Positions 3,046 to 59,919 of a stretch of 64,000 nt of DNA are shown here, in pieces (the stretch's first letter is position 1; each line of letters begins with the position of its first letter). The notes beneath the pieces were generated by a model. The model had not been told where the DNA came from, made no database searches, and was given only the letters and a program-made list of their open reading frames with translations. The position numbers and the translations under genes were made by a program. Source of the DNA: Flavihumibacter profundi (GTDB lineage Bacteria > Bacteroidota > Bacteroidia > Chitinophagales > Chitinophagaceae); contig NZ_JAIQXE010000001.1 of assembly GCF_020076305.1 (NCBI RefSeq), positions 682,001-746,000 of the forward strand, written 5' to 3'.

Positions 3046-3072
3046 CTTCTAAAACTCGTATTCAATATTCTG

Positions 3073-5582: not shown

Positions 5583-5585
5583 AGA

Positions 5586-6020: not shown

Positions 6021-6033
6021 GGTGTTTAATTTG

Positions 6034-6108
6034 GGTGAATGGTGAATGGTGAATGGTGAATGGGAAAACGGAGGCCCACTATTCACAATTTACTATTCAC
6101 TATTCACA
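6034..6108. repeat. Facing heptamer arrays (GGTGAAT x4 / ATTCACT x4)
   Basis: Four exact GGTGAAT units at 6034-6061 face four units of the reverse complement (ATTCACA, ATTTACT, ATTCACT, ATTCACA) at 6081-6108, in perfect 7-bp phase. The two arms could form a long stem. The last unit contains the purC stop codon (TGA, 6104-6106). Confidence 0.9.
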
Positions 6109-7027
6109 ATTTCTCCAATGCCAATTCAATCCTCTGCTTTGTTTCCCCATCACTAAGTTCTTCGGGAACAAATTTTTTGCCAATCACTTTTTCGTATAAT
6201 TCAATATATCGTTTGCTGATCGTCGTTACCCATTCTTTGTCCATCACGGGAACTGTTTGTCCTTCTTTACCCATGAAATTGTTAGCGATAAGCCATTCGC
6301 GCACGAACTCTTTGCTCAGTTGTTTTTGCTTTTCGCCGGCTGCCTGTCTTTCTGCAAATCCATCTGCATAAAAATAGCGGGATGAATCGGGCGTATGGAT
6401 CTCATCCATCAGGTAAATAGTGTCACCAATTTTCCCGAATTCATATTTGGTGTCCACTAAGATAAGTCCCTGTTTTGCTGCAATTTCCTTACCGCGGGCA
6501 AACAATTGCAGGGCATATTTTTCCAGTACTGCCCAGTCTGCGGCACTGGCTAAGCCTGTGGCAATGATGTCTTCTTTAGAGATATCTTCGTCATGGCCTT
6601 CAGAAGCTTTGGTGGAAGGCGTGATAATAGGGGAGTGAAAATAATCATTTTCTTTAAGCCCATCCGGCATAGCAACACCACATAAAACCCTCTTCCCGCT
6701 GCTGTATGTCCGCCAGGCATGCCCGGTAAGGTTGCCACGCACAACCATTTCAATTTTAAAAGGCGTACATTTCTTACCGATAGACACATTAGGCGCGGGC
6801 ACAGAGAGCAGCCAGTTCGGACAGATATCGGTGGTAGCCTGAAGCATAAATGCAGCTATCTGGTTTAAAACTTGTCCTTTATAAGGGATAGGTTCAGGAA
6901 GAATGACGTCGAATGCAGAGATGCGATTGGAAGCAATCATCACCAAAAGGCGATCATTGATCGTGTACACGTCACGGACTTTTCCTTTGTAGAAAGCGGT
7001 TTGGTTGGGGAATTGAAATGTTGCCAT
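6104..7027 (-). CDS. purC: Phosphoribosylaminoimidazole-succinocarboxamide synthase
   Basis: A 307-residue SAICAR synthase: it joins CAIR and aspartate with ATP to form SAICAR in de novo purine synthesis, in the cytoplasm. The N-terminus has the family pattern [16 protein letters not shown] (residues 13-28) and [16 protein letters not shown] (33-48), with [10 protein letters not shown] (near 95-105) in the central part. Length fits the longer eukaryote-like bacterial PurC. The stop codon lies inside a 7-bp repeat array. Upstream, 7030-7065 holds two near-identical 14-bp blocks 21 bp apart. No other purine gene is next to it. Confidence 0.95.
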
Positions 7028-7029
7028 TG

Positions 7030-7065
7030 TGCTAAGTTACCAACCCATAACCGAAAGTTGCCAAC
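7030..7065. repeat. 21-bp-spaced direct repeat before purC
   Basis: Two copies of the block TGGGTTGG(C/T)AACTT (minus strand), 21 bp apart, directly upstream of the purC start. Two helical turns of spacing would suit a dimeric regulator, but 21 is also three heptamers, so this may be a degenerate relative of the arrays elsewhere. Confidence 0.4.
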
Positions 7066-7140
7066 CCACCCACTAAAAAAATTCATTAGATGATAGAAAT
7101 CCTTATTTTGTAAGAGAATATAACCTAAAACACAAGAGGT

Positions 7141-9894
7141 ATGAGAAAAACCTACAGCAAAATTGCTTGCATGCTGTTGGCCGTCTTCTTTTCGATTGCT
7201 GCTTTTGCCCAGACAATAACTATTACCGGAAATGTAAAAAACAGCACCAACCAGGAAGTCGTCCCTGCAGTATCAGTAACAATTAAAGGAACAACCACCG
7301 GTACATTTACCGATGATAAAGGGAACTTCACCCTTACTACCACACAGAAGCCTCCATTAACCTTAATTATTTCTTCTATCGGTTACGAAAGCCAGGAAGT
7401 GGTTGTTACCAATGCTGCAGAAGCAGTGGTGGTAAAAATCGCACCAACTTCATCGTTGGGAACTGAGGTTGTCGTTTCTGCGAGCCGAGTTCCGGAAAGG
7501 ATACTGGAATCACCGGTATCCATTGAAAGGGTGAATGCCGCAGCCATCCGGATTGCGCCTGCTGCATCTTATTATGATATTGTAGCAAATATGAAAGGTG
7601 TGGATGTAGTAACCTCCTCCCTGAACTTCAAAACACCAACCACGCGCGGATTTGGCGGAAGCGGTAATACCCGTTTCAACCAGGTGGTGGATGGCATGGA
7701 TAACCAGGCACCCGGACTGAACTTCTCTGTTGGTGCCATCATCGGTACCTCTGAACTCGATGTAGACAATATGGAATTACTGCCAGGTGCATCATCTGCA
7801 TTATATGGACCAGGTGGTATGAACGGAACCCTGCTGGTTACCAGTAAGAATCCATTTAAATATACCGGGCTTTCCTTCCAGCTCAAGGAGGGTGTTATGA
7901 ATACTGATGGCCGTTACAACGATCCGTCGGCCTACCATAACTGGTCGGTTCGCTGGGCAAATAAAGTAAGTGAAAAGTTTGCCTATAAAATCACTGCTGA
8001 ATACATCCAGGCGAAAGACTGGGTAGCAGCGGACAAAAGGAACTATGACAGGCTCAGTCCAACAGGACAGGGAGTGATTAAAGGAACCCGCGAGACAGAC
8101 CCGAATTATGACGGGGTAAATGTGTATGGTGATGAAACAACAGCGGATATCCGTGCTGTTTTACAAGGAATCGGCCAGCAGGCGTATTTCCTGCAACCCT
8201 ATATCAATACCATGATGGGATCCCCGATAAATGTATCGCGGACAGGATATGATGAAAAGGATATCATTGACCCCATGACCCTAAACTTCAAGATTGGGGG
8301 TGCTTTTCACTATAAGATTACCGACAAGCTGGAAGCGGTTTTTGCAGGTAACTGGGGTACCGGTAATACGGTATATACAGGAAGTGACCGCTATTCTTTC
8401 AAGGATTTTAAAATGGGCCAGTATAAACTTGAACTGAATGGCAAAAATTGGTTCCTGCGGGGATACACTACCCAGGAAAATGCAGGCCAGTCCTTCAATG
8501 CAACCGTAACAACGCGCCTTGTAAATGAGGCCTGGAAGCCGACGATTACCTTTAAGGATGGTGTGCCAAATCCGCAACCTACCGATTGGCTGGTGGAATA
8601 TACACAAGCCTACCTGGCGGGAAAGATGGCTGGAATGGGAGACCTGGATGCGCATACCCAAGCCCGTTCAGTGGCAGACCAGGGACGTCCGGCAGCCGGG
8701 TCAGACCAGTTCAAGCAGCTGTTTGATAAGATCCGTGGTATTCCGATTTCCAGCGGTGGCGGACTTTTCATTGAAAAGTCTGATATGTACCAACTCGAAG
8801 GCCAGTATAATTTATCGTCTGTAACCAGTAAAGTTGCCGATGTTCTTGTAGGTGGTAACTACAAAGTTTATAGCCTGAATTCAGAGGGTACACTTTTTGT
8901 GGATTCAGCAGGACGGATCCGTATTTGGGAAATTGGTGCTTATTTGCAGGCAAGCCGCAGGTTCTTCAACGATAAGTTGAAGCTGACATTCTCCGGCCGC
9001 TATGATAAGAACCAGAATTTTGAAGGCCGTTTTACGCCAAGGGCAACTGCGGTTGTCAGTGTAGCCAAGAACAGCAATATCCGGTTCTCTTACCAGACAG
9101 CCTATCGCTTCCCATCCACACAGCAACAATGGATTGACCTTACGATTGGAGGCGGTGTGCAGCTGATTGGCGGCGATAAGAGCTTCCAGACTTATTATGG
9201 TTTTGACAAGAATGCACCATATACCCTCAATGCGGATGGAAGTGCCGGTGCGACATACAAGTTCAACACCTTCAAGCCTGAATCAGTTTCGTCGTATGAA
9301 CTTGGTTATAAGGGCCTGCATGCAAAAGGCCGGTTGCTGGTAGACGTTTATGGCTATTACGGAACCTATAATGATTTCCTGGCCCGGACAACTGTATTCC
9401 AGAAAAGAGGGGCAGAGCCAAATCCGGCTACGGACAAGGCATTTTCAATTCCCCTGAATATATCTGATAAAGTAACGACCTATGGTTATGGCCTCGGGCT
9501 GGATTACAGGATATACAAAGCATTTACAATAGGCGCGAACTTTTCTTCTGATATCCTGCAGGATGTTCCTGCCAATTATGTGGCCTTCTTTAACTCGCCG
9601 AAATACCGTTTCAATGCCAGTATTTCCAACAATGCACTGGGAAAAAGCAAGCGCTTTGGCGCCAGTGTAAGTTACCGCTGGCAGGATGCTTTCTACTATG
9701 AGGGCGACTTTGCAAATGGCAGTGTTAATTCCATAAATACACTTGATGCACAGGTTAGCTACCGGTTACCGAAAATCAAATCGGTGGTTAAAATCGGAGG
9801 GAACAATATCCTGAACCAATACTATTTCAATGCTGTTGGTAACAGCTTCGTAGGTGGATTGTATTATGTTTCTTTCGGGTATAATATTTTCTAA
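7141..9894 (+). CDS. TonB-dependent receptor with carboxypeptidase-like N-domain
   Basis: A 917-residue outer-membrane receptor. A signal peptide of 23 residues (ends AFAQ) is followed by a carboxypeptidase-D-regulatory-like beta domain (about 25-105), a plug domain (about 115-230, with VVVSASRVPERILESPVSIE at its start) and a long beta-barrel ending in aromatic residues (VSFGYNIF). Such receptors import large or rare ligands with energy from TonB-ExbBD. No SusD follows; the next gene, 23 bp on, is a fasciclin lipoprotein, which may be a surface partner. The ligand is unknown. RBS AGAGGT precedes the ATG. Confidence 0.9.
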   Translation: MRKTYSKIACMLLAVFFSIAAFAQTITITGNVKNSTNQEVVPAVSVTIKGTTTGTFTDDKGNFTLTTTQKPPLTLIISSIGYESQEVVVTNAAEAVVVKIAPTSSLGTEVVVSASRVPERILESPVSIERVNAAAIRIAPAASYYDIVANMKGVDVVTSSLNFKTPTTRGFGGSGNTRFNQVVDGMDNQAPGLNFSVGAIIGTSELDVDNMELLPGASSALYGPGGMNGTLLVTSKNPFKYTGLSFQLKEGVMNTDGRYNDPSAYHNWSVRWANKVSEKFAYKITAEYIQAKDWVAADKRNYDRLSPTGQGVIKGTRETDPNYDGVNVYGDETTADIRAVLQGIGQQAYFLQPYINTMMGSPINVSRTGYDEKDIIDPMTLNFKIGGAFHYKITDKLEAVFAGNWGTGNTVYTGSDRYSFKDFKMGQYKLELNGKNWFLRGYTTQENAGQSFNATVTTRLVNEAWKPTITFKDGVPNPQPTDWLVEYTQAYLAGKMAGMGDLDAHTQARSVADQGRPAAGSDQFKQLFDKIRGIPISSGGGLFIEKSDMYQLEGQYNLSSVTSKVADVLVGGNYKVYSLNSEGTLFVDSAGRIRIWEIGAYLQASRRFFNDKLKLTFSGRYDKNQNFEGRFTPRATAVVSVAKNSNIRFSYQTAYRFPSTQQQWIDLTIGGGVQLIGGDKSFQTYYGFDKNAPYTLNADGSAGATYKFNTFKPESVSSYELGYKGLHAKGRLLVDVYGYYGTYNDFLARTTVFQKRGAEPNPATDKAFSIPLNISDKVTTYGYGLGLDYRIYKAFTIGANFSSDILQDVPANYVAFFNSPKYRFNASISNNALGKSKRFGASVSYRWQDAFYYEGDFANGSVNSINTLDAQVSYRLPKIKSVVKIGGNNILNQYYFNAVGNSFVGGLYYVSFGYNIF

Positions 9895-38676: not shown

Positions 38677-40389
38677 ATGAAAGTTATCATCGTTGGCGGA
38701 GTTGCCGGAGGTGCCTCATGTGCAGCACGATTGCGCAGGCTTGATGAAAAAGCTGAAATCCTGATGTTGGAGCGGGGGCCCTATGTTTCCTACGCGAATT
38801 GCGGGCTGCCTTATCATGTAGGAGGTGTAATTGAAAAAGAATCCAGCCTGCTGGTTGCCAATGAACAGACGTTTCGCGGGCAGTTTAATATTGATGTACG
38901 GACCAATACCGAAATGACTGGTATTTCAGCGGGAGAAAAAAAGGTGCAAATACGCAATCTGGCTACCGGTGAAGAATACACGGAAACATATGATAAACTG
39001 GTGCTTTCGCCAGGTGCAGTATCTGTGCGCCCTCCATTGCCGGGCATAGACCTTCCGGGAATTTTTCACGTCCGCACGGTGCCAGACGCAAGAGCAATAG
39101 TTGAGTGGATAGAAAAAGGCAATCCATTTCTCGCAGGTATATACCGGTATTCCGGCTTCCAGACCCTGAGGCCAAAACCACGGGCTGTGGTAATCGGTGG
39201 TGGATTCATCGGGCTGGAGATGGTGGAAAACCTTGTTCATAAAGACTTTGATGTAACACTGGTTGAGATGATCGACCAGATATTGCCACCGATTGATAAA
39301 GAACATTCCAGTGTGGTGGAATTCTACCTGAAAAAACATGGTGTCCACCTTGCTTTAGGAGATGGTGTGGCTGGTTTTAAGCAGGCTGATAAGGGTACAA
39401 TAAATGTAGAGACCAAATCCGGAAAAACCTATCCGGCAGATGTAGTGATCCTCGCCCTTGGCGTGCGGCCGGATACAAAACTGGCAAAACTGGCAGGACT
39501 GGAAATTGGGGAAAGAGGTGGAATCAGGGTGAACGAACAGATGATTACCAGTGATCCGGATATCCTCGCTGTTGGTGATGCCGTTGAAGTGAAGGATTTT
39601 GTTACCGGGGAGTGGAGCCTCGTGGCGCTTGCCGGGCCTGCAAACCGACAGGGCCGTATTGCCGCTGATGTGATTGCCGGACGCAACTCCCGTTTCAGGG
39701 GAACCCAGGGAACCTCCGTTATCGGTTTGTTTGGGGCAACTGCTGCATGGACAGGTGTGAGCGAAAAAACGCTGATCCGTAGGGGGGATGCTGATTATGA
39801 AAAAATCTATCTCTATCCAAATTCACACGCAGGGTATTACCCGGGAGCCAAACCCATTGCCCTAAAAGTTATTTTCCGGAAATCGGATGGTCGGTTGCTT
39901 GGTGCCCAGGGACTTGGATTGGATGGTGTAGAAAAACGGATAGACGTTTTTGCTGCCATACTCCAGATGGGTGGAACTGTTTACGATTTGGAAGAAGCCG
40001 AACTTTGCTATGCACCTCCTTTTGGTAGTGCGAAAGATCCCATGAACTTTGCGGGAATGGTTGCGGCCGATATCCTTAGGGGTGATATGAAAATCAGCCA
40101 CTGGAAAGAGGCGAAATCCGGGTTCATGCTGGATGTGCGGCATCCCATCGAACTTGCTGTGGAAAATGTCGCGGGCGCCATCAATATCCCTTTGGATGAT
40201 TTACGGGCGCGAATCAACGAACTTCCCAAAGATCGCGAAATACATGTCATTTGCCGTTCCGGCCAGCGCGCATATATTGCTGCCAGGATTCTGACACAAC
40301 ATGGATATGATGCAAAAATTATATCAGGCGGAATGCTTTCGCTGGCGCATAATTATTTGTTTGGCAGGAGCGAAACCGGAGAATCCTGA
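38677..40389 (+). CDS. CoA-disulfide reductase/rhodanese fusion (CoADR-RHD)
   Basis: A 570-residue flavoprotein. The FAD Rossmann motif is VIIVGGVAGGASCAARLRR (3-21); the single redox-active Cys42 sits in SYANCGLPYHVGG, typical of CoA disulfide reductase and NADH oxidase; a second GxGxxG (VIGGGFIGLEM) binds NAD(P)H near 172. A C-terminal rhodanese domain begins about residue 470 and has Cys526 in HVICRSGQRAY. CoADR-RHD enzymes reduce CoA disulfide, CoA persulfide or polysulfide, so they act in thiol redox balance or sulfane-sulfur handling. The gene stands alone between a terminator and the dicarboxylate transporter; a TGAATTTG box about 30 nt upstream is a weak -7 candidate. Confidence 0.92.
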   Translation: MKVIIVGGVAGGASCAARLRRLDEKAEILMLERGPYVSYANCGLPYHVGGVIEKESSLLVANEQTFRGQFNIDVRTNTEMTGISAGEKKVQIRNLATGEEYTETYDKLVLSPGAVSVRPPLPGIDLPGIFHVRTVPDARAIVEWIEKGNPFLAGIYRYSGFQTLRPKPRAVVIGGGFIGLEMVENLVHKDFDVTLVEMIDQILPPIDKEHSSVVEFYLKKHGVHLALGDGVAGFKQADKGTINVETKSGKTYPADVVILALGVRPDTKLAKLAGLEIGERGGIRVNEQMITSDPDILAVGDAVEVKDFVTGEWSLVALAGPANRQGRIAADVIAGRNSRFRGTQGTSVIGLFGATAAWTGVSEKTLIRRGDADYEKIYLYPNSHAGYYPGAKPIALKVIFRKSDGRLLGAQGLGLDGVEKRIDVFAAILQMGGTVYDLEEAELCYAPPFGSAKDPMNFAGMVAADILRGDMKISHWKEAKSGFMLDVRHPIELAVENVAGAINIPLDDLRARINELPKDREIHVICRSGQRAYIAARILTQHGYDAKIISGGMLSLAHNYLFGRSETGES

Positions 40390-41990: not shown

Positions 41991-43121
41991 ATGCCAAAGG
42001 ACAAAAAAGAAAAAAAAGACAAAAAGGGGAAAAAGCAGAAAAAGGAAAAAACGGAAGGTATATATTCAACTTCCGGCCTCCTGAAAAGAACCCTGCGAGT
42101 CGCCTATCCGGCAGGCAAGGGGCGAATGGTGCTGCGTACAGAACAAGACTGGGATGAAGACATTGAGCCGGTGTACATAAGTGAAGATGGTAACACTTCC
42201 ACTTTTGAAATAGCCGCCAGCCTGCCATTCCTTTACTTCAAAGCCTGCCTGGTTGATGATAGTACACTTCACTGGTCTGTGGGCAATAATAACCTGCTTT
42301 TAATGGAAGAAAAAGACCAGCGCATTTTGTACCCTTTCTTTTTCGGTGAAGACAATGGGGAATTCTCGCAGTTGGTAGAATTTCCATCGCAAATACTTAA
42401 CCGAACCCACTACCTCCGGATATACCTTCCACCAGGTTACCATGAAAATACCCTGGCCACCTACCCGGTGGCGTTTATGCAGGATGGCCAGAACCTCTTT
42501 TTTCCTGAGGAAGCATTCCAGGGCCAGGATTGGAAAGTTGAAAGAACCAGCCATACATTGCGGGCAATGAGTGCAGTTGAGGACTTCATCATTATTGGCA
42601 TCCGCTCCGGCGACCGGATGCAGGAATTTACTGCCCCGGGTTATGCAGCCTATGGCCAGTCGCTTGCCGAAGAGATCGTACCAGAAGTGCAACGCCTGCT
42701 TCGCATAGGTAACCACCGCCGGTTTCGTACCGTTTGGGGGTCTTCCCTTGGTGGGGTTGTTTCCTTTTATACAGTTTGGCAATACCCTGAAATCTTTGGA
42801 ACGGCTGTATGTATGTCGAGTACCTTTTCTTTCCAGGACGACCTCATAGAGCGTGTATTGAATGAGCCTCAGCGGGATGTGGCATTTTACCTTGACAGCG
42901 GATGGCCAGGTGATAACTATGAAGTGACAATGGCTATGGCAATGGCCCTGGTTTCACGGGGGTGGAAATATGGCCGGAACTTATTACACCTGAGCTTTCC
43001 GGATGCCGGCCATAATGAAACAGCCTGGGGTATGCGATTACACCTGCCGATGCAGTTCCTGAATGGCGCAGTTGCCCGGGCCGCAAGGGCCGGTGCACAG
43101 GTACTGGGAGACAAGCCCTGA
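41991..43121 (+). CDS. Esterase of the EsterD/enterochelin-esterase type with Lys-rich tail
   Basis: A 376-residue alpha/beta hydrolase. Residues 3-20 are almost all Lys, Glu, Asp and Gln (KDKKEKKDKK and on), then an Ig-like or CBM48-like beta domain (about 30-125) precedes the catalytic domain. The nucleophile is Ser252 in WGSSLGG; an Asp in AFYLDSGWPGDN and the His in DAGHNETAW complete a likely triad. Relatives include enterochelin esterases and feruloyl/xylan esterases. No signal peptide is seen, so it should be cytoplasmic. The Lys-rich start may bind nucleic acid or membranes, but this is a guess. It ends 68 bp before the convergent DUF2490 gene. Confidence 0.82.
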   Translation: MPKDKKEKKDKKGKKQKKEKTEGIYSTSGLLKRTLRVAYPAGKGRMVLRTEQDWDEDIEPVYISEDGNTSTFEIAASLPFLYFKACLVDDSTLHWSVGNNNLLLMEEKDQRILYPFFFGEDNGEFSQLVEFPSQILNRTHYLRIYLPPGYHENTLATYPVAFMQDGQNLFFPEEAFQGQDWKVERTSHTLRAMSAVEDFIIIGIRSGDRMQEFTAPGYAAYGQSLAEEIVPEVQRLLRIGNHRRFRTVWGSSLGGVVSFYTVWQYPEIFGTAVCMSSTFSFQDDLIERVLNEPQRDVAFYLDSGWPGDNYEVTMAMAMALVSRGWKYGRNLLHLSFPDAGHNETAWGMRLHLPMQFLNGAVARAARAGAQVLGDKP

Positions 43122-43188
43122 GACATACAAGTACAAAATGGAATCAACGCGAAACAAGTATTTGGAAAACCTTTCCACCAAATTAATC

Positions 43189-43929
43189 TCACTTATTATT
43201 TTTGGAATGTTTTGTTTCAAAGAATACGTGCACTATAATATTTAAGGCATAAAGGTTTTCTGTATTGTAATGAGAATCGTACTGATAGGTTATATTTCCC
43301 TCATAGGCAAAGCGCGATCCCCATGCAGCGGTGGCACCACCAATTAACCGGATCCGATTGATTGTAGAGTAGCGGGAATCCCAATATGGTTCGGCATTCA
43401 CGTAAGGGACGATTGACCTGCGCCCGGTTAAATATTCTTTCTCAATCATAACCCGGTAACGAAACCTGTAGGAGAATACCGGATCCTGTCCAACCCAGCG
43501 AAGGTCTGTGCGAAAACGATTAGATAGCAAAATCCCATTGTTTAGCGGGGTCCTCCTGTGAATTTCCCCAAAAACCATATCCTCAGTATATTCACCGGCA
43601 CTTTCACCGAGGCTCCATCCCTCCATAATTCCGCCACGTGCCAGCCATCCTTTCATCTGCTGAGCCTTGATATCGTCCACAAGCCTCCTGAGGATTAAAT
43701 GTTTTGTTTTTCCCCAGGCATAATCTGCCTGCAAATAAATATTTAAATCCAGGTTCTTACTCTCATTGTATTTTGTAACGGGAATGAATGCTGAAAGCCG
43801 CCAGGATTGGTTAAGCCTGTACCATATATCGGTTTCGGGCCAGAACTCCACTGATGAATTTTGTGCAATGCAGGTATTGCCTGTACAAAGGCTGATAATG
43901 AGGCCTAAACAAATCAGTCGGAGTTTCAT
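43189..43929 (-). CDS. DUF2490-family outer-membrane protein
   Basis: A 246-residue exported protein (signal peptide about 22 residues, ends CIAQ) of the DUF2490 type: FWPETDIWYRLNQSWRLSAF (around 28-47), a series of amphipathic strands, and an end HVFFETKHSKNNK. It is probably a small outer-membrane barrel of unknown function. I start at the ATG at 43929; a TTG two codons upstream is also in frame. It is a single gene, convergent with the esterase. Confidence 0.8.
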   Translation of the reverse strand: MKLRLICLGLIISLCTGNTCIAQNSSVEFWPETDIWYRLNQSWRLSAFIPVTKYNESKNLDLNIYLQADYAWGKTKHLILRRLVDDIKAQQMKGWLARGGIMEGWSLGESAGEYTEDMVFGEIHRRTPLNNGILLSNRFRTDLRWVGQDPVFSYRFRYRVMIEKEYLTGRRSIVPYVNAEPYWDSRYSTINRIRLIGGATAAWGSRFAYEGNITYQYDSHYNTENLYALNIIVHVFFETKHSKNNK

Positions 43930-44053
43930 TTCCAAAACATAGTTTTTCTGTCGGCATAATAGCTGTGGTTATCCAACAAACCTGTATATACGAAGGTACT
44001 TGACTTTAATTAGATGGAAGAACAAGAAAAGCTGTAAAGCCCTTTATAAACCA

Positions 44054-44665
44054 TCAGGCTTTCAATAGCTCCTTTAATTGATTGTAGATGATCAGCAGTC
44101 CCAACGCTACCTGGACAACACCGAGAATTGCCCCCAATAAGGCAAGAAAGACCAAAAGCAATTTGCCTATATGGCGGGTTAGGAGCATGATTACCAGGTT
44201 AAGCGCCATTATACACAATACTATAACACCAATAATTATTTTATTCTTGAGATCAGGGGTAAGTGCGAGAAACACGATGACTGCTGCGATCCCATAGGGT
44301 GTAACTATGGTCGGGAAGGCAAGGGGATTCAACGCTACACTCATGTCCGGAATGGATGCAGCATGCTCCTGCTGTAATTCATGTGGCGTAAACTGCTGGA
44401 TGATATTTAAAAGCGCCACCAGGAAAAGTATGATTCCTGCAGATATTGCTAAAATAGGTACAGGAATACCAAAATTGGACAGGATATTCTCGCCCATAAC
44501 GGCCGCTAACAGTAGGGCAATGGTGGATAATAGTATTGCACGGAATGCGATCTTTCGGGTGAGGGCCGGTGTTGCATTCTGGGTGATCTTTGCAAAGGGC
44601 CCGATGATTTTAAAGGGGCCCAGCATCAGAAAGAGAAATGTGAATACCTGTATTTTCAGTTCCAT
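44054..44665 (-). CDS. MarC-family membrane protein
   Basis: A 203-residue inner-membrane protein with six helices. MarC family marks are FLFLMLGPFKIIGPFAKIT (about 10-28), a central LAISAGIILFLVALLNI, and FPTIVTPYGIAAVIVFLAL (about 114-132). MarC was once linked to multiple antibiotic resistance, but that link was withdrawn and the function is unknown. It lies 46 bp after the DUF202 gene on the same strand. Confidence 0.92.
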   Translation of the reverse strand: MELKIQVFTFLFLMLGPFKIIGPFAKITQNATPALTRKIAFRAILLSTIALLLAAVMGENILSNFGIPVPILAISAGIILFLVALLNIIQQFTPHELQQEHAASIPDMSVALNPLAFPTIVTPYGIAAVIVFLALTPDLKNKIIIGVIVLCIMALNLVIMLLTRHIGKLLLVFLALLGAILGVVQVALGLLIIYNQLKELLKA

Positions 44666-44711
44666 GTTTATATAGTTTTTGCAAAGTATTTAAATGTGTT
44701 TACAAAGGTTA

Positions 44712-45143
44712 TTACCTAATACCTTTAACCTGGAACACTATACCCAGGAAAATAACGATTCCGAAAATTGTGAGGATGGCTGCCATAAACAATGAATACC
44801 TCGTACGAGTGAACTCATACCGACCACGCAAACGCATAATGGTTTCCACATTTTCAATAGTCCCCATAATTAAAGATAGGACGCCCATGCCAACCATAAA
44901 AAGTCCAACCACTTCCGGTCCTGAAATGTCAACTGGAATCTTACTAACGGCTAAGAGTTGCTTGTTTGAATTTTCGAGGAACTTGTAGATGGTGAAACCA
45001 AAACTGATCAGGGAAAGGCCGGTACGAACCCAGGCCATCAGGGACCTGTCTGCGGCCATCACTGTACGATCTACAGCCATGGCGGTACTGTCAATTGCCG
45101 ATTGTAGCTTTTCACCAGGTAAATTATTTTTTTCGTTTGCCAT
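44712..45143 (-). CDS. DUF202-family membrane protein
   Basis: A 143-residue protein with three helices (about 43-60, 77-97 and 118-138). The DUF202 signature DRSLMAWVRTGLSLISFGF is at about 31-49. Such proteins (YidH-like) are of unknown function. I prefer the ATG at 45143, preceded by AAGGAAC; an in-frame ATG at 45173 overlaps the rhodanese stop (TAATG) and would add ten residues, so translational coupling is an alternative. It lies between the rhodanese and MarC genes. Confidence 0.85.
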   Translation of the reverse strand: MANEKNNLPGEKLQSAIDSTAMAVDRTVMAADRSLMAWVRTGLSLISFGFTIYKFLENSNKQLLAVSKIPVDISGPEVVGLFMVGMGVLSLIMGTIENVETIMRLRGRYEFTRTRYSLFMAAILTIFGIVIFLGIVFQVKGIR

Positions 45144-45172
45144 ATCAGGTTCCTTTTGAATTATTTCCAGCA

Positions 45173-45685
45173 TTAATGAACTGTAGGTAGCAACATTTGC
45201 TCGGGAGAAAGCTTATAAGACCAGGGGCATCCTGAGTTCTTCCAGCCGTTCTTCAGCCGCTGGCCATTGAATACACTGGCCGGGTCATTAACCGTATCTC
45301 CTTCCATGCCATCAACGATGTTGTAAGCTTTTGTAAAACCTGCTTTGGCGAGCATGTTAACAGCTATTGCACTTCTGCCACCTGAACGGCACATAACCAT
45401 GACCGTGTCGCCGGGTTTTGCAACCTGTTGAACACGTGATACAAAATCGGGGAGGAGTTTCATGGGAAACTGTCCCTTTATGGTATCCCATTCGTAAGAT
45501 TGGGTGGCAACAGGTATTTTCCAGGCCATGGTAGGAAATCCCACAAAAAGATACTCTTCAGGGGTGCGGACATCAATGACCTTTACCATTCCGGGTTCAG
45601 CTTTCCAACGTTCATAGGCTTCCTTAGCTGTCACATATAGCCCCGGTGCCGTTTGTTTTTCTAAGGGAATGTTAAGTTCTGCCAT
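45173..45685 (-). CDS. Rhodanese-like sulfurtransferase
   Basis: A 170-residue single-domain rhodanese without signal peptide. The catalytic loop is CRSGGRS with Cys99 (MVMCRSGGRSAIAV), and the domain starts with VKVIDVRTPEEYLFVGFP. It has a short insertion (GFPTMAWKIPVATQSYEWDT) before the active site and a C-terminal extension ending in KLSPEQMLLP. It would move sulfane sulfur between thiols. An ATG at 45685 is 8 nt after GGAGG, a better spacing than the ATG at 45691. It is downstream of the DszB-like gene (122-bp gap with a 16-bp perfect inverted repeat) and followed by the DUF202 gene. Confidence 0.9.
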   Translation of the reverse strand: MAELNIPLEKQTAPGLYVTAKEAYERWKAEPGMVKVIDVRTPEEYLFVGFPTMAWKIPVATQSYEWDTIKGQFPMKLLPDFVSRVQQVAKPGDTVMVMCRSGGRSAIAVNMLAKAGFTKAYNIVDGMEGDTVNDPASVFNGQRLKNGWKNSGCPWSYKLSPEQMLLPTVH

Positions 45686-45727
45686 GTTCATAACCTCCGC
45701 TTATTTTCTTTAATAATATTTGGTATT

Positions 45728-45767
45728 ATTTATTGGAACCCATAATAATCGATGGGTTCCAATAAAT
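45728..45767. other. 16-bp perfect inverted repeat (hairpin)
   Basis: Arms ATTTATTGGAACCCAT (45728-45743) and ATGGGTTCCAATAAAT (45752-45767) with an 8-nt loop. It lies between the DszB-like stop and the rhodanese start on the minus strand. There is no T run after it, so a processing or mRNA-stabilising stem, an attenuator or an operator are all possible. Confidence 0.7.
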
Positions 45768-45813
45768 GATTTTAAAAGGGCAATAATTCAACTTCCTTTA
45801 AACTTACACCCGA

Positions 45814-47022
45814 CTACCCCAATCTGGTTCCTGACGCCAGCGGTGCTGCTGTTTCAGGAAGTTTTGATGTAGTTCTTTTCTTCCATTCATCTTCCAGTAG
45901 TTCCCTGGCTGCCTGCTCAAGGAATTCAGGTGCAGCCCATTTTTGCACATCGAAGTCGTTCTTGATGTAGCCATGGCTCAGCATAAAGTCCTTGCCGATC
46001 TCAACGGAGGCCAGGTTCTGTGGTGACAGGTTAGGTACCATGTCGATATGCCTGATCCCCTCATAAGTATCCTCTACGTCAAGATAAAATGTCTGCTTGT
46101 CAAGGATAGCTGCTGCTGCATGCTTATGTTCGTTGGCCCAGCGCCCCACTTTGATCATGCCTTTCAGGTAAGTAATGACCAACTCAGGATGTTGTTCCGC
46201 CATCACATCGGTGCAGGTAATAGCTGCGGGAATGTTTGCCACCTGCAGGGTCCAGTCCGGATACCTTGACAGATCCTCGATTGCCTTCATCTTACCAGTC
46301 GCTTCCTGAAGATGCTGGAAGGGTTTGCTTTGGGTGTAAATCGCATCAACTACCCCATTCAACAGCGCTGTTTCAAGGGGGCGGAAAGCCAGGTCATATT
46401 TATGGTTACGCTTGAGCCACAATTCTGAAGGGTTTTCCATTGGGTCAAGCATAGCCGGATTGTTATACCAGTCATCGGCATAGGGGAATTCCACGATCTC
46501 AACATCAGCGCGGGTCATACCGTTCATCCTTAGCATAAGTTCAATTCCCTGCTCCTCCTGGATGCGCCACCAGTCGTTCTTGATCTGGTTTAAACTCTTG
46601 GAAAGACCAATTTTCTTGCCTTTCAGGTCCTTCATCAGGTATATATTATCCCTGGAACGCACCATCATGCAACCTCCTTCGTGTGGTGCATGTGTTACCC
46701 CAAGAAGTCTCGTCCTGCGGATATCAGCCTGGACATGGACAGGCGGGAATAAGCCACCGAAACGGATGAGGTTATCAAGGTTGTGGATGTAGTGTGGATA
46801 CCAGTCGTTTTCGCGAACAGAACGTAAGAAACCATATTTCACACCGATTTTCTTATACTCCTCCCTCGTCCAGCCCAGTTCCTGGTCAACGTTGCTGGCT
46901 GAAACCAAAGGACAATTGGTGTAGTATACCTCTTTCCAGTTCAATGGAATGGTATTTAATTTTGTGTTTTCGAAAGTTGTACTTTTCAATGCTTCGTTTC
47001 CCATAAAAGCTTTTTTTTTCAT
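45814..47022 (-). CDS. DszB-like sulfinate desulfinase (periplasmic-binding-protein fold)
   Basis: A 402-residue protein that a routine search would call an ABC substrate-binding protein (NMT1/sulfonate type), but it has no signal peptide and no ABC permease or ATPase nearby. It matches what I recall of Rhodococcus DszB, the 2'-hydroxybiphenyl-2-sulfinate desulfinase: YYTNCPLV with Cys37 (DszB Cys27), His77 ten residues before Arg87 in IRFGG (DszB His60 and Arg70 in TRFGG), then RTRLLGVT, LKGKKIGLS and a late KWAAPEFLEQA. All three catalytic residues are therefore present at the right spacing. I infer a cytoplasmic C-S-cleaving enzyme acting on an unknown sulfinate. A related lyase or binding role remains possible. 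The next gene downstream is a rhodanese. Confidence 0.7.
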   Translation of the reverse strand: MKKKAFMGNEALKSTTFENTKLNTIPLNWKEVYYTNCPLVSASNVDQELGWTREEYKKIGVKYGFLRSVRENDWYPHYIHNLDNLIRFGGLFPPVHVQADIRRTRLLGVTHAPHEGGCMMVRSRDNIYLMKDLKGKKIGLSKSLNQIKNDWWRIQEEQGIELMLRMNGMTRADVEIVEFPYADDWYNNPAMLDPMENPSELWLKRNHKYDLAFRPLETALLNGVVDAIYTQSKPFQHLQEATGKMKAIEDLSRYPDWTLQVANIPAAITCTDVMAEQHPELVITYLKGMIKVGRWANEHKHAAAAILDKQTFYLDVEDTYEGIRHIDMVPNLSPQNLASVEIGKDFMLSHGYIKNDFDVQKWAAPEFLEQAARELLEDEWKKRTTSKLPETAAPLASGTRLG

Positions 47023-47189
47023 AACCCGGCCGGTGGTAATGACTTGGTATTATTAAATAAGGCCCGGTCACCTGGAAAGGGTTTAAAATCCTGAACTAAT
47101 TTGAATCTAAATACTGAACAGGGTTATGATCTATTTCACTAAATAATATGATTAAAATCAATAATGGATAACTTCCAGCGCTCAATCTT

Positions 47190-47197
47190 TACCTTTG
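47190..47197 (+). promoter_or_regulatory. -7 box (TACCTTTG) of the DUF4239 gene
   Basis: Perfect TAnnTTTG match 41 nt before the ATG at 47239. No clear -33 element. The rest of the 216-bp gap 47023-47238 shows only A/T-rich sequence. Confidence 0.45.
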
Positions 47198-47238
47198 ATT
47201 TTAACGACCGCAAATTTTAAAGGTAAATTGATTTATAA

Positions 47239-48033
47239 ATGATATTCCAGGACATGCCGTTATGGCTAATTGTAGCAGCAACAATTTTCGCTGTGCTGCT
47301 TTCCATTGAACTTGGGTATAGGTTAGGAAATAACCTCAACAAACGCATTGAGGTAGAAAAGGAATCACCGGTTTCTGTCATTTCAGGGGCTATATTAGGC
47401 TTGCTTGCATTTATGCTGGCATTCGTTTTCGGGATCCTGTATAACCGTTTTGAAGCCCGTAAAGGCCTGGTACGTGAAGAATCCCTTGCCATCAGCAAAG
47501 TATGGTTGAGGTCAGATTTCATGTCGGAACCAGACAGGGGAAAGTCGGTTAAGCTTTTGAAAGAATATCTTGACACTCGTATATCTTCTTTTCAATCGGG
47601 TGATAAAGCCAGGATTATAATAGCATTAAAAGAGTCTGACCGGATTCAGGCCGAGTTATGGGATATGGCTGTTGTGAATGCCCGTAAGGATATGAACTCA
47701 GATGTTGCTGCATTATATATTGAAGCACTGAATGAAATGATGGACATTCATGATATGCGGGTTGTCAGGGGGCTCCAGGCAAAAACACCTTTAGGTTTAT
47801 GGCTTGGGCTTTATGCAATTCTTTTTTTGGGTATGTTTTCAATTGGCTACCAGACGGCAATTGTGCAATCCCGACGATCACTGGCATCGCTGTTACTGGC
47901 TTTATCCTTTACTACTATGTTTATTTTAATTACTACACTCGATCGACCGCTCGAAGGATTTTTTAAGGTACCCCAGCAACCACTCCTAAACTTACAGGCT
48001 AAAATGGCCGGTAAGGAAATTCCAGTAGAATAG
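47239..48033 (+). CDS. Bestrophin-like membrane protein (DUF4239)
   Basis: A 264-residue membrane protein with two N-terminal helices (about 7-27 and 48-72), a soluble helical middle (75-180; FEARKGLVREESLAISKVWL begins it) and two C-terminal helices (about 188-207 and 214-232) followed by LDRPLEGFFKVPQQPL. This is the pattern of DUF4239, a bestrophin-like group of unknown function. Bestrophins are anion channels, so ion leakage is a guess. It is followed after 89 bp by the second lipoprotein paralogue. Confidence 0.8.
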   Translation: MIFQDMPLWLIVAATIFAVLLSIELGYRLGNNLNKRIEVEKESPVSVISGAILGLLAFMLAFVFGILYNRFEARKGLVREESLAISKVWLRSDFMSEPDRGKSVKLLKEYLDTRISSFQSGDKARIIIALKESDRIQAELWDMAVVNARKDMNSDVAALYIEALNEMMDIHDMRVVRGLQAKTPLGLWLGLYAILFLGMFSIGYQTAIVQSRRSLASLLLALSFTTMFILITTLDRPLEGFFKVPQQPLLNLQAKMAGKEIPVE

Positions 48034-49713: not shown

Positions 49714-51951
49714 ATGAAGATATTTTCGGTTATTTTTTTTGTACTGCTCATTGGTGTATTGTTTTATTGCTGCGTTGAAACTACAAAACCAGAAGAGGTT
49801 TCACCGAAAACCTATGTAGGTTCAGCAAAATGCCAATCTTGTCACGCTAAGGAATTCACGAATTATACTGGTTCCGACCATTTTCATGCCATGGATTCTG
49901 CCTTACCCCGTTCGGTAAAAGGCAATTTCAATAATAGTTATTTTATCTATTTTGGCGATACCAGTTTCTTTTACCAGAAAGAGGGCGGATACTTTGTACG
50001 TACAAAAGATTCCCTGGGACATAAAAGGGAATTCAAAGTGGATTTTACTTTCGGCTGGAAACCATTACAACAATACCTGGTTAAGTTTGACGATGGCCGG
50101 ATTCAAACCCTGCCTTTTTGCTGGGATACCAGGCCAAAAGAAAAAGGCGGTCAACGATGGTTCCATATTTATGGCAAGGATAAAATACTACCAGGCGATG
50201 AATTGTTCTGGATGGATATCAATCAAAACTGGAACAACATGTGTGCTGATTGCCATACGACCAATTACGTAAAGAAATACGAAATCGGCAATCACAGTTT
50301 TAAAAGCACCTGGGGCGAATCTGATGTTTCCTGTGAATCCTGCCATGGGCCTGCCTCAGGTCATTTGGGCTGGGCTGAACAAAAAACAGGAAAGGATTCG
50401 TTGAAAGGCTTTTCTGTAAGCCTTAGGTCCAGTAATGTACAGTGGAAATTTAATCCCGGGAAAGGAATAGCCTACCCCGATAAAATTGTGTCTAATAATA
50501 CACAAATTGAAACCTGTGCCCGCTGCCATGCCCGTGCATCGCGGTTGAGTGATGATTATTACCACGGACAATCATTCCTGCAGACCCATATCCCATCTAC
50601 AATAAATGCTACCAATTATTATATTGATGGACAGATCAAAGAGGAAGATTATGAATATGGCTCCTTCCTGCAAAGTAAAATGTATGCGCAGGGAGTAACC
50701 TGTGTTAACTGTCATGATGCGCACTCCATGCAACTGAAGGCACCTGGAAATGCAACCTGTTTTTCCTGCCATGCCCCAGAAAAGTTTAACGTTGAAGGGC
50801 ATACGCACCATGCGGAAAATTCTGTTGGAGCCAGCTGTGCCAATTGCCATATGCCCGTTTCGACCTATATGGGGGTTGATGACAGGCGGGACCACAGTAT
50901 CCGGATACCCCGGCCGGATTTATCTGAGCAAACAGGCACTCCAAATGCCTGCAATAAATGCCATACAAATGAACCGGTAAGCTGGACGAAAAAATATTTC
51001 CTGCAATGGTATGGAGACAAATTGCCTAAGAACCAGACCTATGGTGAGTTGATGTATCTTATGTCTAAGAATGCAGAGGGCGGCGAAAAGGCATGGCATG
51101 AATTAATTTCCTCGGAAACTTATCCTGCAATTATTAAAGCAACGGTGCTTGATCAATACAGGCAGTACCTGTCTCCAAGGAATATTGATGAAGTAAAGAA
51201 TAAACTGCAAAGTGATAACCCTGATTTGCGGTTAAATGCCATTCATGCGATTTCCGGTTTGCCTCCTGAAGAGGTGATGCCATTGCTATTACCAATGTTA
51301 AACGACAAGGTGCTTTCCGTCAGGACAGAAGCAATGAACGCCATGTCTTCATTTTACAACCTGGTTGACCAGAACAGCAGGACCAGGTTTAACCAGGTAT
51401 TGGAAGAGTACCTGACCATTCAAAGAAAGATGGGTGACCGGCCTGAAGGATACCTGAACCAGGGAATTGTTTTAGCAGCAACAGGAAGGATGGTTGAATC
51501 AGAACAGATATACCTGCTGGGTATACAACGTTTCCCAAAATTCACCGCCTTGTATGCAAACCTGGCTGACCTGTACAGGGAGATGGGCAATGATGCAAAA
51601 TCAAAAGAGTATTTGGATAGCGGATTATCTGTTGACCCCCGGAATGGGACATTATATTACTCCCTTGGATTGTGGTACTTCCGGAACCATGATGAAAAAA
51701 ATGGGTTCACCGCCTTGCAGAAGTCCCTTAAATTGAATCCTGCTGATCCTTCCTTTACCTATACCTATGCCATTGCCCAACATTCCAAAGGCGAGTCAGG
51801 ACAGGCTGTTAAAACACTTGAAACTTACCTGGAGAAAAATGGCAATGACCCGCAAATACTGAACGCTTTAATTTCACTTTACCAGGATTTAAACCAAAGG
51901 GAAAAAGTGAACTATTATCTCCAAAAAAGGAAATCAATTTTCGGGTATTAG
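49714..51951 (+). CDS. Octaheme c-type cytochrome with HEAT and TPR repeats
   Basis: A 745-residue exported protein with eight CXXCH haem-binding motifs at residues 40, 177, 207, 268, 330, 349, 375 and 413. The N-terminal hydrophobic stretch ends in FYCC, a poor but possible lipobox. The haem region (about 35-420) resembles the cytochrome c-554/octaheme group; the part from about 430 to 560 contains HEAT-like helices (LNAIHAISGLPPEEVMPLLL) and the last 180 residues are TPR repeats (FPKFTALYANLADLYREMGN). Such proteins transfer electrons in the periplasm; the TPR part suggests a protein partner. No nitrite-reductase NrfH, hydroxylamine or tetrathionate genes are adjacent, so the electron acceptor is unknown. 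Confidence 0.9.
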   Translation: MKIFSVIFFVLLIGVLFYCCVETTKPEEVSPKTYVGSAKCQSCHAKEFTNYTGSDHFHAMDSALPRSVKGNFNNSYFIYFGDTSFFYQKEGGYFVRTKDSLGHKREFKVDFTFGWKPLQQYLVKFDDGRIQTLPFCWDTRPKEKGGQRWFHIYGKDKILPGDELFWMDINQNWNNMCADCHTTNYVKKYEIGNHSFKSTWGESDVSCESCHGPASGHLGWAEQKTGKDSLKGFSVSLRSSNVQWKFNPGKGIAYPDKIVSNNTQIETCARCHARASRLSDDYYHGQSFLQTHIPSTINATNYYIDGQIKEEDYEYGSFLQSKMYAQGVTCVNCHDAHSMQLKAPGNATCFSCHAPEKFNVEGHTHHAENSVGASCANCHMPVSTYMGVDDRRDHSIRIPRPDLSEQTGTPNACNKCHTNEPVSWTKKYFLQWYGDKLPKNQTYGELMYLMSKNAEGGEKAWHELISSETYPAIIKATVLDQYRQYLSPRNIDEVKNKLQSDNPDLRLNAIHAISGLPPEEVMPLLLPMLNDKVLSVRTEAMNAMSSFYNLVDQNSRTRFNQVLEEYLTIQRKMGDRPEGYLNQGIVLAATGRMVESEQIYLLGIQRFPKFTALYANLADLYREMGNDAKSKEYLDSGLSVDPRNGTLYYSLGLWYFRNHDEKNGFTALQKSLKLNPADPSFTYTYAIAQHSKGESGQAVKTLETYLEKNGNDPQILNALISLYQDLNQREKVNYYLQKRKSIFGY

Positions 51952-56645: not shown

Positions 56646-58481
56646 TTAGAAGGTTTTAGTATTTGAAGTTTTGTGGATCCTGCGTTTGAACACATCATCC
56701 CAATCAATGAAGGGATAGATATTATTCGTTTTCGCTTCACTATCGAAAAGTGCTTTCAGCTCTTTTAATTTTTCAGGATATTTAGAAGCCAGGTTTACCC
56801 TTTCATTAAAATCTTCATTCAGGTTATACAATTCCCAAACATCATTTTCATAACTATTATTCAGGGAATCTTTTCCAGGTGCAGTCACATCTATGTAATC
56901 CGGATGATGGGTTGCCGCAGCTTTCCAGCCATCTTTGTAAATGGAGCGGTTACCGAAAATATAGTAGTACTGTTTTGTGTGGTGAGAAGCAGCTGTGGCA
57001 TCTTTCAGGGAATAAAACAATGAAGTGCCCTGCAGGGTATCCTGTTTAATGCCCTTGATCTGTTCTGGTAGTTTTATCCCGGTAACATCCAGTGTAGTTG
57101 GTAACAAATCGATTACATGCCCGTATTGTTTCCTGATACCGCCTTTCTCCAATCCGCCTTTTGGATAAAAAATGATTAATGGATTCCGGGTGCCGCCTTC
57201 TGACTGTGCATCCTGCTTCCATAATTTGAATGGTGTGTTGGTGGCCTGGGCCCATCCCAAAGGGTAATTGGTTTGTTTGCCCTGAGGTGTGCCAATAGCG
57301 TCAATTTCAGCCAGGTTTACTTTGATTGCTTCCTCATCAGGAAGCCTTTTGCCCATAACGCCCTTGTTGATAGCCCCGGTATATGTGCCTTCCTTACTGG
57401 CACCGTTGTCGCCGATGACCAGGAAAATGATGGTGTTATCCAGCTGGTTAATTTCTTTCAGGTAATTAACAACACGGCCAACTTCATGGTCGGTATAGGT
57501 TAGGAAACCAGCAAATACTTCCATGAATTTCGCATACAGTTTCTTTTCATTGGCGGGTAAACTATTCCAGGCTTTCAAATTTGCATTACGGGGGGGGAGT
57601 TGTGCATTTGCCGGAATGATGCCCAGTTTTTTCTGGTTGGCGAGCACTTTTTCGCGGTAAACATCCCAGCCTTCATCAAATTTCCCGGCATAGGCATCGC
57701 TCCATTGTTTGGTTACCTGGTGCGGCGCATGGACTGCTGCGGGTGCATAGTATAAAAAGAAGGGTTTGTCTGGTGCGGCTTTTTTTTGCCGGGCGATATA
57801 ACTTATGGCTTTATCGGTGATCTGTTCATTGAGGTGGCGGCCATCCGGTTTTACATGGGCGTTGTCTTCAACAAGGTCGGGCTCATACTGGTCGGTTTGG
57901 GAACCCAGGAAGCCAAAGAAGTGGTCGAAGCCTTTTCCGCTTGGCCATCGATCAAATGGACCAGCATCAGTGGCTTCTTCATCGGGAGTAACACCGTATT
58001 TTCCAACAGCAAAAGTATTGTAGCCATTTTCGCGGAGAATTTCAGCAATAGTGCCTTTGTCTGCAGGAATCCTGCCATCATAACCTGGAAATCCAGCGGA
58101 TAAAATGGTATGGGAAAATCCGCCGACATGCACATAGTGGTGATTCCTTCCGGTTAACAATCCGGCACGCGTAGGCGCGCAAATTGCGGCTGTATGAAAA
58201 TTTGTATACCGTAATCCCTGGCTGGCCAGGCTATCAAAAACAGGTGTATTGATGAGGCCGCCAAATGCGCTTGATGCACCATAACCGACATCATCCAGCA
58301 AGATCCAAACCACATTAGGGGCGCCAGCCGGTGCTTTTACCGGGGGTGCCCACCATTCTTTTGATTCGGCTAATGTTTTACCAACAACCCCCTGGTAGGG
58401 CTGCGTATTTTGTGCTATGGCTGGTAATTGTTTAATGCTCATCCCTGTTACAAGAGCTAATATTAGGGTTGTTTTTTTCAT
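56646..58481 (-). CDS. Arylsulfatase, AtsA/PAS-like
   Basis: A 611-residue exported sulfatase (signal peptide about 24 residues, ends AIAQ) that should hydrolyse a sulfate ester in the periplasm. The formylglycine site is CAPTR with Cys101 and Arg105 in AAICAPTRAGLLTGRNHH; metal ligands include the early LLDDVGYG (Asp63, Asp64) and VIGDNGASK near residue 358. The N-terminal segment with ESKEWWAPPVKAPAGAPNVV and the length match the Pseudomonas AtsA type. The gene follows the second sulfatase by 4 bp. It needs a maturation enzyme, which is not in the window. Confidence 0.93.
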   Translation of the reverse strand: MKKTTLILALVTGMSIKQLPAIAQNTQPYQGVVGKTLAESKEWWAPPVKAPAGAPNVVWILLDDVGYGASSAFGGLINTPVFDSLASQGLRYTNFHTAAICAPTRAGLLTGRNHHYVHVGGFSHTILSAGFPGYDGRIPADKGTIAEILRENGYNTFAVGKYGVTPDEEATDAGPFDRWPSGKGFDHFFGFLGSQTDQYEPDLVEDNAHVKPDGRHLNEQITDKAISYIARQKKAAPDKPFFLYYAPAAVHAPHQVTKQWSDAYAGKFDEGWDVYREKVLANQKKLGIIPANAQLPPRNANLKAWNSLPANEKKLYAKFMEVFAGFLTYTDHEVGRVVNYLKEINQLDNTIIFLVIGDNGASKEGTYTGAINKGVMGKRLPDEEAIKVNLAEIDAIGTPQGKQTNYPLGWAQATNTPFKLWKQDAQSEGGTRNPLIIFYPKGGLEKGGIRKQYGHVIDLLPTTLDVTGIKLPEQIKGIKQDTLQGTSLFYSLKDATAASHHTKQYYYIFGNRSIYKDGWKAAATHHPDYIDVTAPGKDSLNNSYENDVWELYNLNEDFNERVNLASKYPEKLKELKALFDSEAKTNNIYPFIDWDDVFKRRIHKTSNTKTF

Positions 58482-58485
58482 GCTA

Positions 58486-59919
58486 TTATTGTTTCTTTTC
58501 GTATTTAAATGGAAATAAAAGGGAAGGCCTATGTGCCTTGTCCATAAGCTGGTTTAATTCGGTGACTTTCTCGGGGAATTTTGCCGCCAGGTTATTCACT
58601 TCACCCGGATCATTTGCCAGGTCATAAAGTTCTACAGGGCCGTTGGGTAATGAATCAACATTCAGTTTTACAGCTTTCCAATTTTGTTGTCGCAGGGCCT
58701 GTTTACCATCTTGTTCATGAAACTCCCAATACAGGAAATCGTGTTTTTGTTGTTTACCTGAACCAGTTAAAACAGGTAATAATGAAACGCCGTCTGTTGG
58801 TCCGGAAAATTTTGACTTAGCCAAAGCAACTGATGTAGGTAAGATATCCCAGAAAGCACCAACAAAATCAGTGCTGCCACCTTGCTTTATTACGCCTGGC
58901 CAGCTTGCAATAAATGGAACATGTATCCCACCTTCATATAGGTCGCGTTTGGTTCCACTGTAGATGCCATTACTGTTGAAAAAATCGGGGTCCGCACCAC
59001 CTTCAATATGCGGCCCATTATCACTGGTAAAAATAATAAGGGTATTCTTATCAAGTCCTCTTGCTTTTAAAGCAGCAACCACCTGGCCTACATAAAGATC
59101 AAGCCTGCTGACCATTGCAGCGAAACTGGCATGTGGGTAAGGTTGGGAGCTGTAACCATCATCGATTGCATTTGCTCCATAATCTTTTCCAGTAAAAGGT
59201 TTTTCCGGAAAACGGCCTTTATATGTATGGAAGATAGAATCATCCGGAACCAATAATTCTGCATGTGGCAGGATATAGGGTAAAAATAAAAAGAAGGGTT
59301 GCCGGTTAGATTGTTTAGCAATAAAAGACAGGGCTTTTTCCTGGATCAGATCTGGTGCGTAAGTAATTGTTTTTTTAAAACCTTCATTTTCCTGCAACTC
59401 AATTTTTTGTTGGTTGTCCCAAAGGTGATCAGGATAATACCGGTGTGCAAGTCCCTGTGAATTATAGCCAAAGAAATGGTCAATCCCCTGCTTATTGGGA
59501 TCCCCTTCAGTACCAACCGGACCTAAACCCCATTTCCCAAATGCACCAGTAATATATCCGGCTTTTTTCAGAATTTCCGGTAAAGTAATAATGTCTCCTG
59601 CCAGTGGTTCTTCACCTTCCGGAAAGGCTGCTTTATTTCCCCGGATATAGGTATGCCCGGTATGCAGGCCAGTCAATAATGCCGAACGGGAAGGAGCACA
59701 TACCGTAGCACCGGAATAAAATTGCGTGAAATTAAGACCGTTAAATGCCAGCCTGTCGATATTTGGTGTAAGGAATTTTTGCTGTCCATTTACTGAAATA
59801 TCTCCATAGCCTAAATCATCAGCTAATATGAATACAATATTAGGTTTTGAATTAGGCAGTTGAGCAAATCCTGGTTGCAACCAAAATCCTCCAAATATTA
59901 TAAATAGTAACTTATTCAC
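58486..59919 (-). CDS. Arylsulfatase, S1-type
   Basis: A 477-residue exported sulfatase starting with GTG at 59919 (signal peptide about 19 residues, ends PGFAQ). The site is CAPSR with Cys74 (ATVCAPSRSALLTG); metal-binding residues include ILADDLGYGD (Asp34-Asp35) and FTSDNGPHIEGG near 305. The C-terminal part has WKAVKLN and VELYDLANDPGEVNNLA, a common sulfatase end. Its sequence is distinct from the AtsA-like enzyme downstream, so the two probably remove sulfates from different positions or substrates. It follows the PstS-like gene by 6 bp. Confidence 0.93.
   Translation of the reverse strand: MNKLLFIIFGGFWLQPGFAQLPNSKPNIVFILADDLGYGDISVNGQQKFLTPNIDRLAFNGLNFTQFYSGATVCAPSRSALLTGLHTGHTYIRGNKAAFPEGEEPLAGDIITLPEILKKAGYITGAFGKWGLGPVGTEGDPNKQGIDHFFGYNSQGLAHRYYPDHLWDNQQKIELQENEGFKKTITYAPDLIQEKALSFIAKQSNRQPFFLFLPYILPHAELLVPDDSIFHTYKGRFPEKPFTGKDYGANAIDDGYSSQPYPHASFAAMVSRLDLYVGQVVAALKARGLDKNTLIIFTSDNGPHIEGGADPDFFNSNGIYSGTKRDLYEGGIHVPFIASWPGVIKQGGSTDFVGAFWDILPTSVALAKSKFSGPTDGVSLLPVLTGSGKQQKHDFLYWEFHEQDGKQALRQQNWKAVKLNVDSLPNGPVELYDLANDPGEVNNLAAKFPEKVTELNQLMDKAHRPSLLFPFKYEKKQ

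Follow-up and report, generated by a model that had tools for sequence, protein, structure and literature searches.

The window analysed here is a 64,000-nucleotide stretch of Flavihumibacter profundi DNA (contig NZ_JAIQXE010000001.1, positions 682,001 to 746,000). On its minus strand, at 45814..47022, lies an open reading frame (ORF) encoding a 402-residue protein (P0001) whose matches in the PDB identify it as a relative of the desulfinase DszB. A first-pass annotation, made from the sequence of the window, had placed the gene here and proposed that it is a DszB-like desulfinase concealed by the label of an ATP-binding cassette (ABC) binding protein; the ORF is present as described, and that label is the one carried by the Rhizobium orthologues, which are annotated 'ABC transporter substrate-binding protein'.

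Homology of the window protein to DszB

Compared with the PDB, the window protein found DszB at E-values of 2e-12 (phmmer) and 2e-13 (profile); the other profile matches were weak (3qsl, a putative exported protein, 0.0094; the SsuA entry 3uif, 0.29). Both its sequence and its predicted fold are closer to DszB than to SsuA-type binding proteins, and homology of the DszB type is in our view close to certain. The only Pfam match was a weak NMT1/THI5-like one, at 23.5 bits with the cut-off at 20.5 and confined to residues 117-180; since this is a broad fold family, the match says nothing about function. A weak NCBIfam match, 'SaoX', was followed into the literature and yielded nothing.

Alignment to DszB, with the codons checked on the minus strand of the window, pairs Cys37 (46912..46914) with DszB C27, His77 (46792..46794) with H60, and Arg87-Phe-Gly89-Gly90 (46753..46764) with the RxGG motif R70-x-G-G73, and puts Thr35 (46918..46920) in the place of S25. 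The first-pass annotation had pointed to Cys37, His77 and Arg87, to the spacing of 10 between His and Arg, and to the RTRLLG and WAAPEFL blocks common to both proteins, and all of them are seen in the alignment; the PDB matches and predicted-fold scores likewise bear out the DszB-type fold that it proposed. Of DszB it is reported that the C27S variant is inactive and the H60Q change costs about 17-fold, that H60 forms a dyad with S25, that R70 belongs to the conserved motif RXGG, and that two loops, 55-62 and 187-204, become folded when substrate binds (PMC6100217).

Conservation was assessed in an 86-row alignment covering 84 loci, the distant plasmid protein L003 among them. Cys37, on whose presence in orthologues the initial proposal had been made to depend, is cysteine in all 84 rows with a letter at that place (2 gaps), His77, His80, Arg87, Gly89 and Gly90 are each kept in 86 of 86 rows, and Thr35 is kept in 84 of the 85 rows that have a residue there. 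We also compared 24 selected sequences (16 from the clade, DszB itself and seven DszB-like rows), which all retain the Cys, His, Arg and GG; at the Cys/His/Arg places of the same alignment, E. coli SsuA has G/Q/D and TauA S/S/Q. A further alignment (A3) holds 81 clade sequences, its rows being tblastn-matched stretches rather than full ORFs, and leaves out L054 and the loci that did not come from the search for related loci. Here D183, D184, W185, R205, K208 and D210 are invariant. D184, W185 and K208 were found neither in DszB nor in the DszB-like rows; some DszB-like rows share D183 and R205, and DszB has D210. Part of this clade-specific 183-210 stretch aligns approximately with DszB loop 187-204. 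We read its charged and aromatic residues as a more polar pocket, which would favour a polar sulfinate over an aromatic one as substrate. Judged by its sequence, the window protein is most likely a member of a broad DszB-type family, in a clade of its own, and not a 4S DszB.

If the transporter label were correct, the protein would be a binder and not an enzyme, namely a sulfonate/sulfinate-binding protein of the SsuA type, either stand-alone or exported by the twin-arginine translocation (Tat) route. By a simple hydropathy scan, the window protein lacks a hydrophobic signal segment, in agreement with the earlier statement that it has no signal peptide, and no ABC ATPase matched in the 64 kb window, which agrees with the reported lack of transport partners; elsewhere in the genome, the closest match detected is some 76 kb away. 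Of 83 orthologue loci, a set that leaves out distant L003 and the short duplicates L004 and L005, two (L002 and L077) have an ABC ATPase homologue within 5 kb and three others (L035, L039 and L079) have one at 8.6-9.0 kb, and three permease queries found homologues in L002 only (1/83). The NCBIfam SsuA_fam model gives 52.5 bits, far under its cut-off of 163.5, and the invariant Cys/His/Arg set that the clade has in common with DszB is absent from SsuA and TauA. These points argue against a binder, which we consider unlikely.

The hydropathy scan also flagged eight orthologue rows for a hydrophobic stretch preceding the homologous part. By eye, five of these eight (L037, L038, L056, L057 and L062) bear a twin-arginine-like signal, unlike the window protein.

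Rhodanese and other genes around the locus

Located 122 bases downstream of the DszB-like gene is a gene for a single-domain rhodanese with the loop CRSGGR (45173..45691, minus; Pfam PF00581, 41.6 bits), and a CoA-disulfide reductase-like protein with a C-terminal rhodanese domain is encoded at 38677..40389 (plus; Pfam/NCBIfam), its cluster occurring in 27 of 84 loci, window included. Flanks in the neighbourhood set have medians of 6.7 and 6.5 kb, in most loci extend no further than about 10 kb and are often shorter, and 34 loci have 5 kb on both sides. Neighbour clusters outside the Pfam/NCBIfam scans were named by eye, and neighbour counts are possibly low because genes were called with a crude ORF picker that missed some in one or more high-GC loci, the L002 permeases among them. 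The 5 kb neighbourhood of the 34 fully flanked loci includes a rhodanese-domain gene in 29 cases, a CoA-disulfide reductase-rhodanese gene in 17, and at least one of four kinds (rhodanese, CoA-disulfide reductase-rhodanese, SulP, bile-acid-symporter-like) in 31, the exceptions being L044, L050 and L083. Within 10 kb in all 83 loci, a rhodanese-domain gene is found in 58 and any of the four kinds in 64. As the window genome has 20 rhodanese domain hits in about 15 ORFs, roughly one of 34 loci would be expected to have such a neighbour by chance, with this single genome as the background. In 23/78 loci (a count that omits five loci without a called gene on the downstream side), from eight named phyla plus the window, the next gene downstream on the same strand encodes the rhodanese, and the CRSGGR loop occurs in 23/34 rhodaneses of the larger cluster and 1/8 of the smaller. 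Pairwise identities correlate weakly with those of the DszB-like protein (0.19 for the rhodanese, 0.17 for the CoA-disulfide reductase-rhodanese), and the modules therefore seem to have been reshuffled and not to have travelled as a unit.

Such linkage also favours a second alternative, in which the protein would be a sulfur-transfer enzyme: Cys37 would carry a persulfide or thiosulfonate, the rhodanese would be its partner, and inorganic sulfite, thiosulfate or an organic thiosulfonate would be the substrate; no sulfinate C-S bond would be cleaved. Besides the downstream rhodaneses and the CoA-disulfide reductase-rhodanese genes, it is favoured by the result that two luciferase-like and two acyl-CoA-dehydrogenase-like queries of DszA/DszC type found no homologue in the 83 loci, as the first-pass remark on missing dszA and dszC had implied for the window, and by the presence of the gene in metagenome-assembled genomes (MAGs) of lineages that are mostly anaerobic. 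Against it stands DszB, to our knowledge the only characterised relative with the Cys/His/Arg set, which is a desulfinase; in addition, rhizobial paralogues sit in clusters that look dszABC-like and resemble sulfone/sulfinate pathways. We give sulfur transfer a low probability.

Further along the minus strand, a DUF202 membrane protein gene (44712..45173) has one base in common with the rhodanese gene and is followed by genes for a MarC-type membrane protein (44054..44665) and a protein slightly below the DUF2490 cut-off (43189-43935); the DUF202 and MarC clusters occur in 11/84 and 9/84 loci, respectively, window included. Divergent from the DszB-like gene is a gene for a bestrophin-like membrane protein (47239..48033, plus; Pfam PF14023, the DUF4239 family), and a DUF4239 gene lies near the Rhizobium orthologue in L001. 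A scan of 43000-47300 gave 11 promoter-like sites against 9.0 in shuffles and no terminator-like site. We also looked for island marks: the GC content of the DszB-like gene is 0.475 against 0.441 overall, and the one tRNA in the window is far from it, at 3072-3156.

Several other genes share the window or the orthologue loci. Two tandem sulfatase-like genes, named by eye, lie at 56646-59919, and the cluster of the first shares a locus with the DszB-like gene in six other loci; at 49714-51951 is a multihaem cytochrome c-like protein with several CxxCH motifs (by eye) and a repeat-rich C-terminal part. A glycyl-radical enzyme, a phosphofructokinase-like gene and an activase share the locus in L015, L023, L026, L031, L046, L053 and L072; the enzyme has ACVG at the likely thiyl cysteine in 7/7, a median pairwise identity of 90% over several phyla, and 493 bits against the 1100 cut-off of its nearest NCBIfam model. 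On the Rhizobium plasmid L001, two 2-hydroxyacyl-CoA-dehydratase-family genes (5457-7903), with two activases after them, lie upstream of the DszB-like gene, and two genes of the same clusters occur at 4184-6633 of L080, a Desulfobacteraceae MAG.

Taxonomic spread of the clade

The genome scan, to which the counts refer, kept the best 80 of 94 relatives, in 79 loci, and these are 64-92% identical to the window protein. Orthologues overall are 64-94% identical and come from 14 labelled phyla, including Thermodesulfobacteriota, Verrucomicrobiota, Acidobacteriota, Actinomycetota, Chloroflexota, Nitrospirota, Cyanobacteriota, Pseudomonadota and Bacteroidota; two archaeal MAGs, both Methanomicrobiales, are counted among them. 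The group is cross-phylum, and the description of the gene as a 'Bacteroidota version' is not supported. Plasmid records comprise four from Rhizobium (R. leguminosarum, R. johnstonii) at 69.5-78.2%, after which identity drops to about 27%. As many carriers are MAGs, binning errors are possible; carriers not marked as MAGs nevertheless occur in four phyla (Nocardioides and Humibacillus; Synechococcus; Chelatococcus, Kaistia, Tateyamaria and Pseudomonas sp. N040; Lutimonas), and include Chelatococcus asaccharovorans DSM 6462, Kaistia dalseonensis, Tateyamaria pelophila and Nocardioides terrigena. The gene is present three times on one T. pelophila contig (L048).

In a quick tree, the window protein forms a set of four (support 97) with the proteins of its near relative G013, a Methylobacter and a Desulfobacterales, and falls away from the labelled Bacteroidota rows. 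Phylum labels need at least 31 changes on this tree, against a least possible 13 and a shuffled mean of 48.8, and so show clustering that is well short of perfect. Broad presence in the phylum was rejected: besides the window genome, the gene was found in 1/58 near relatives (G013, 94%; E 0.001) and in 0/394 other sampled genomes of the phylum at E 1e-50. Cross-phylum spread, placement in the tree and scarcity among near relatives and in the phylum together suggest, but do not prove, that the gene has moved between phyla by horizontal transfer. A phage or virus origin was also rejected, as a viral-contig scan with the A3 profile gave no relatives and two 'phage' matches at 25.6% look bacterial from the gene table of one. 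The contig labelled 'Acinetobacter phage MD-2021a' (L089), with its ordinary bacterial genes for transport and metabolism, is probably of bacterial origin.

Proposed function and relation to known systems

The relatives at about 27% identity are rhizobial plasmid proteins and an Acinetobacter-labelled record (L003, L086-L090). In L087 and L088 the DszB-like gene is flanked on one side by a luciferase-like monooxygenase and on the other by an acyl-CoA-dehydrogenase-like gene, which in L087 are nearest SfnG and SfnB, both below cut-off; a luciferase-like monooxygenase adjoins it in L003, and an acyl-CoA-dehydrogenase-like gene is near it in L090. By hhalign, six rows of this group match the window clade at a probability of 99.9; L086, which carries no annotation, was left out of that comparison (A4). 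The Acinetobacter-labelled record already bears the label 'HBPS desulfinase'. With these loci, it places DszB-like proteins outside actinobacteria in public records, contrary to the first-pass view that DszB is otherwise limited to the actinobacterial 4S pathway.

In a third alternative, the substrate of the window protein would be an aromatic sulfinate, as for the 4S enzyme, and genes at other places in the genome would provide the functions of DszA and DszC. The DszB fold and residues would suit such a role, and the host genome (4.87 Mb, 6 contigs) has three luciferase-like monooxygenases and four SfnB-model matches. However, none of the three monooxygenases matches the SfnG, SsuD or NtaA/DmoA models at 1e-20 (they match other families), and the SfnB matches are all below cut-off, making a supply of these functions by the host unlikely. 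The lack of DszA/DszC-type homologues in the 83 loci also counts against it, as do D184, W185 and K208, which are particular to the clade and belong to a stretch that in part aligns with the DszB loop described as folding on substrate binding (PMC6100217). We regard an aromatic 4S-like role as very improbable.

The reading we favour, and hold to be moderately probable, is that the window protein is a cytosolic DszB-type desulfinase of a non-4S clade whose substrate is a small organic sulfinate, probably a polar one, and whose product sulfite is dealt with by the rhodanese. Homology, predicted fold, conserved residues, gene linkage and taxonomic spread are what the analysis shows directly; desulfinase activity, sulfite release, rhodanese coupling and a polar substrate we infer. 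A periplasmic-binding-protein fold would here have become a cytosolic enzyme that removes the sulfinate group: Cys37 may attack the sulfinate or donate a proton, His77 and Thr35 would take up charge from Cys37, and Arg87, together with the GG turn, would keep the sulfinate in place. Sulfite would be released as product, and the co-encoded rhodanese could join it with sulfane sulfur to give thiosulfate or pass sulfur on otherwise. More speculative, and in our estimation doubtful, is a broader version in which an oxygen-independent sulfinate desulfinase travels between bacterial phyla, and possibly archaea, with a rhodanese that forms thiosulfate, and serves a widespread polar sulfinate in anoxic habitats.

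If our favoured reading is true, a widely shared set of proteins now labelled as components of transporters would be C-S lyases, and the chemistry of DszB, known mainly from work on the desulfurisation of fuel, would have a second and wider role in nature. The reading would also point to an organic sulfinate pool used by many lake, sediment and soil microbes and make diverse, well-conserved enzymes available for study, and the carriers not marked as MAGs make the desulfinase reading testable. In the parts of the open-access PubMed Central literature available to us (including PMC6100217, PMC4839641, PMC6015842, PMC11237513 and PMC9361551), we found no account of the clade or of a desulfinase-rhodanese cluster.

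Compared with the sulfonate- and taurine-binding proteins, the clade has the Cys, His and Arg that E. coli SsuA and TauA lack, and ssuA shares an operon with ssuB and ssuC, unlike the window gene. DszB itself (PDB 2de2, 2de3 and 2de4) is about 23% identical to the window protein; relative to it, the clade has Thr for S25, His80 for Y63 and the extra stretch with D184, W185 and K208, and its genes are often accompanied by a rhodanese, with no dszA/dszC found nearby. The L003/L086-L090 proteins have the same Cys/His/Arg/RxGG set as the window clade, but they are shorter and form a separate branch of the tree.
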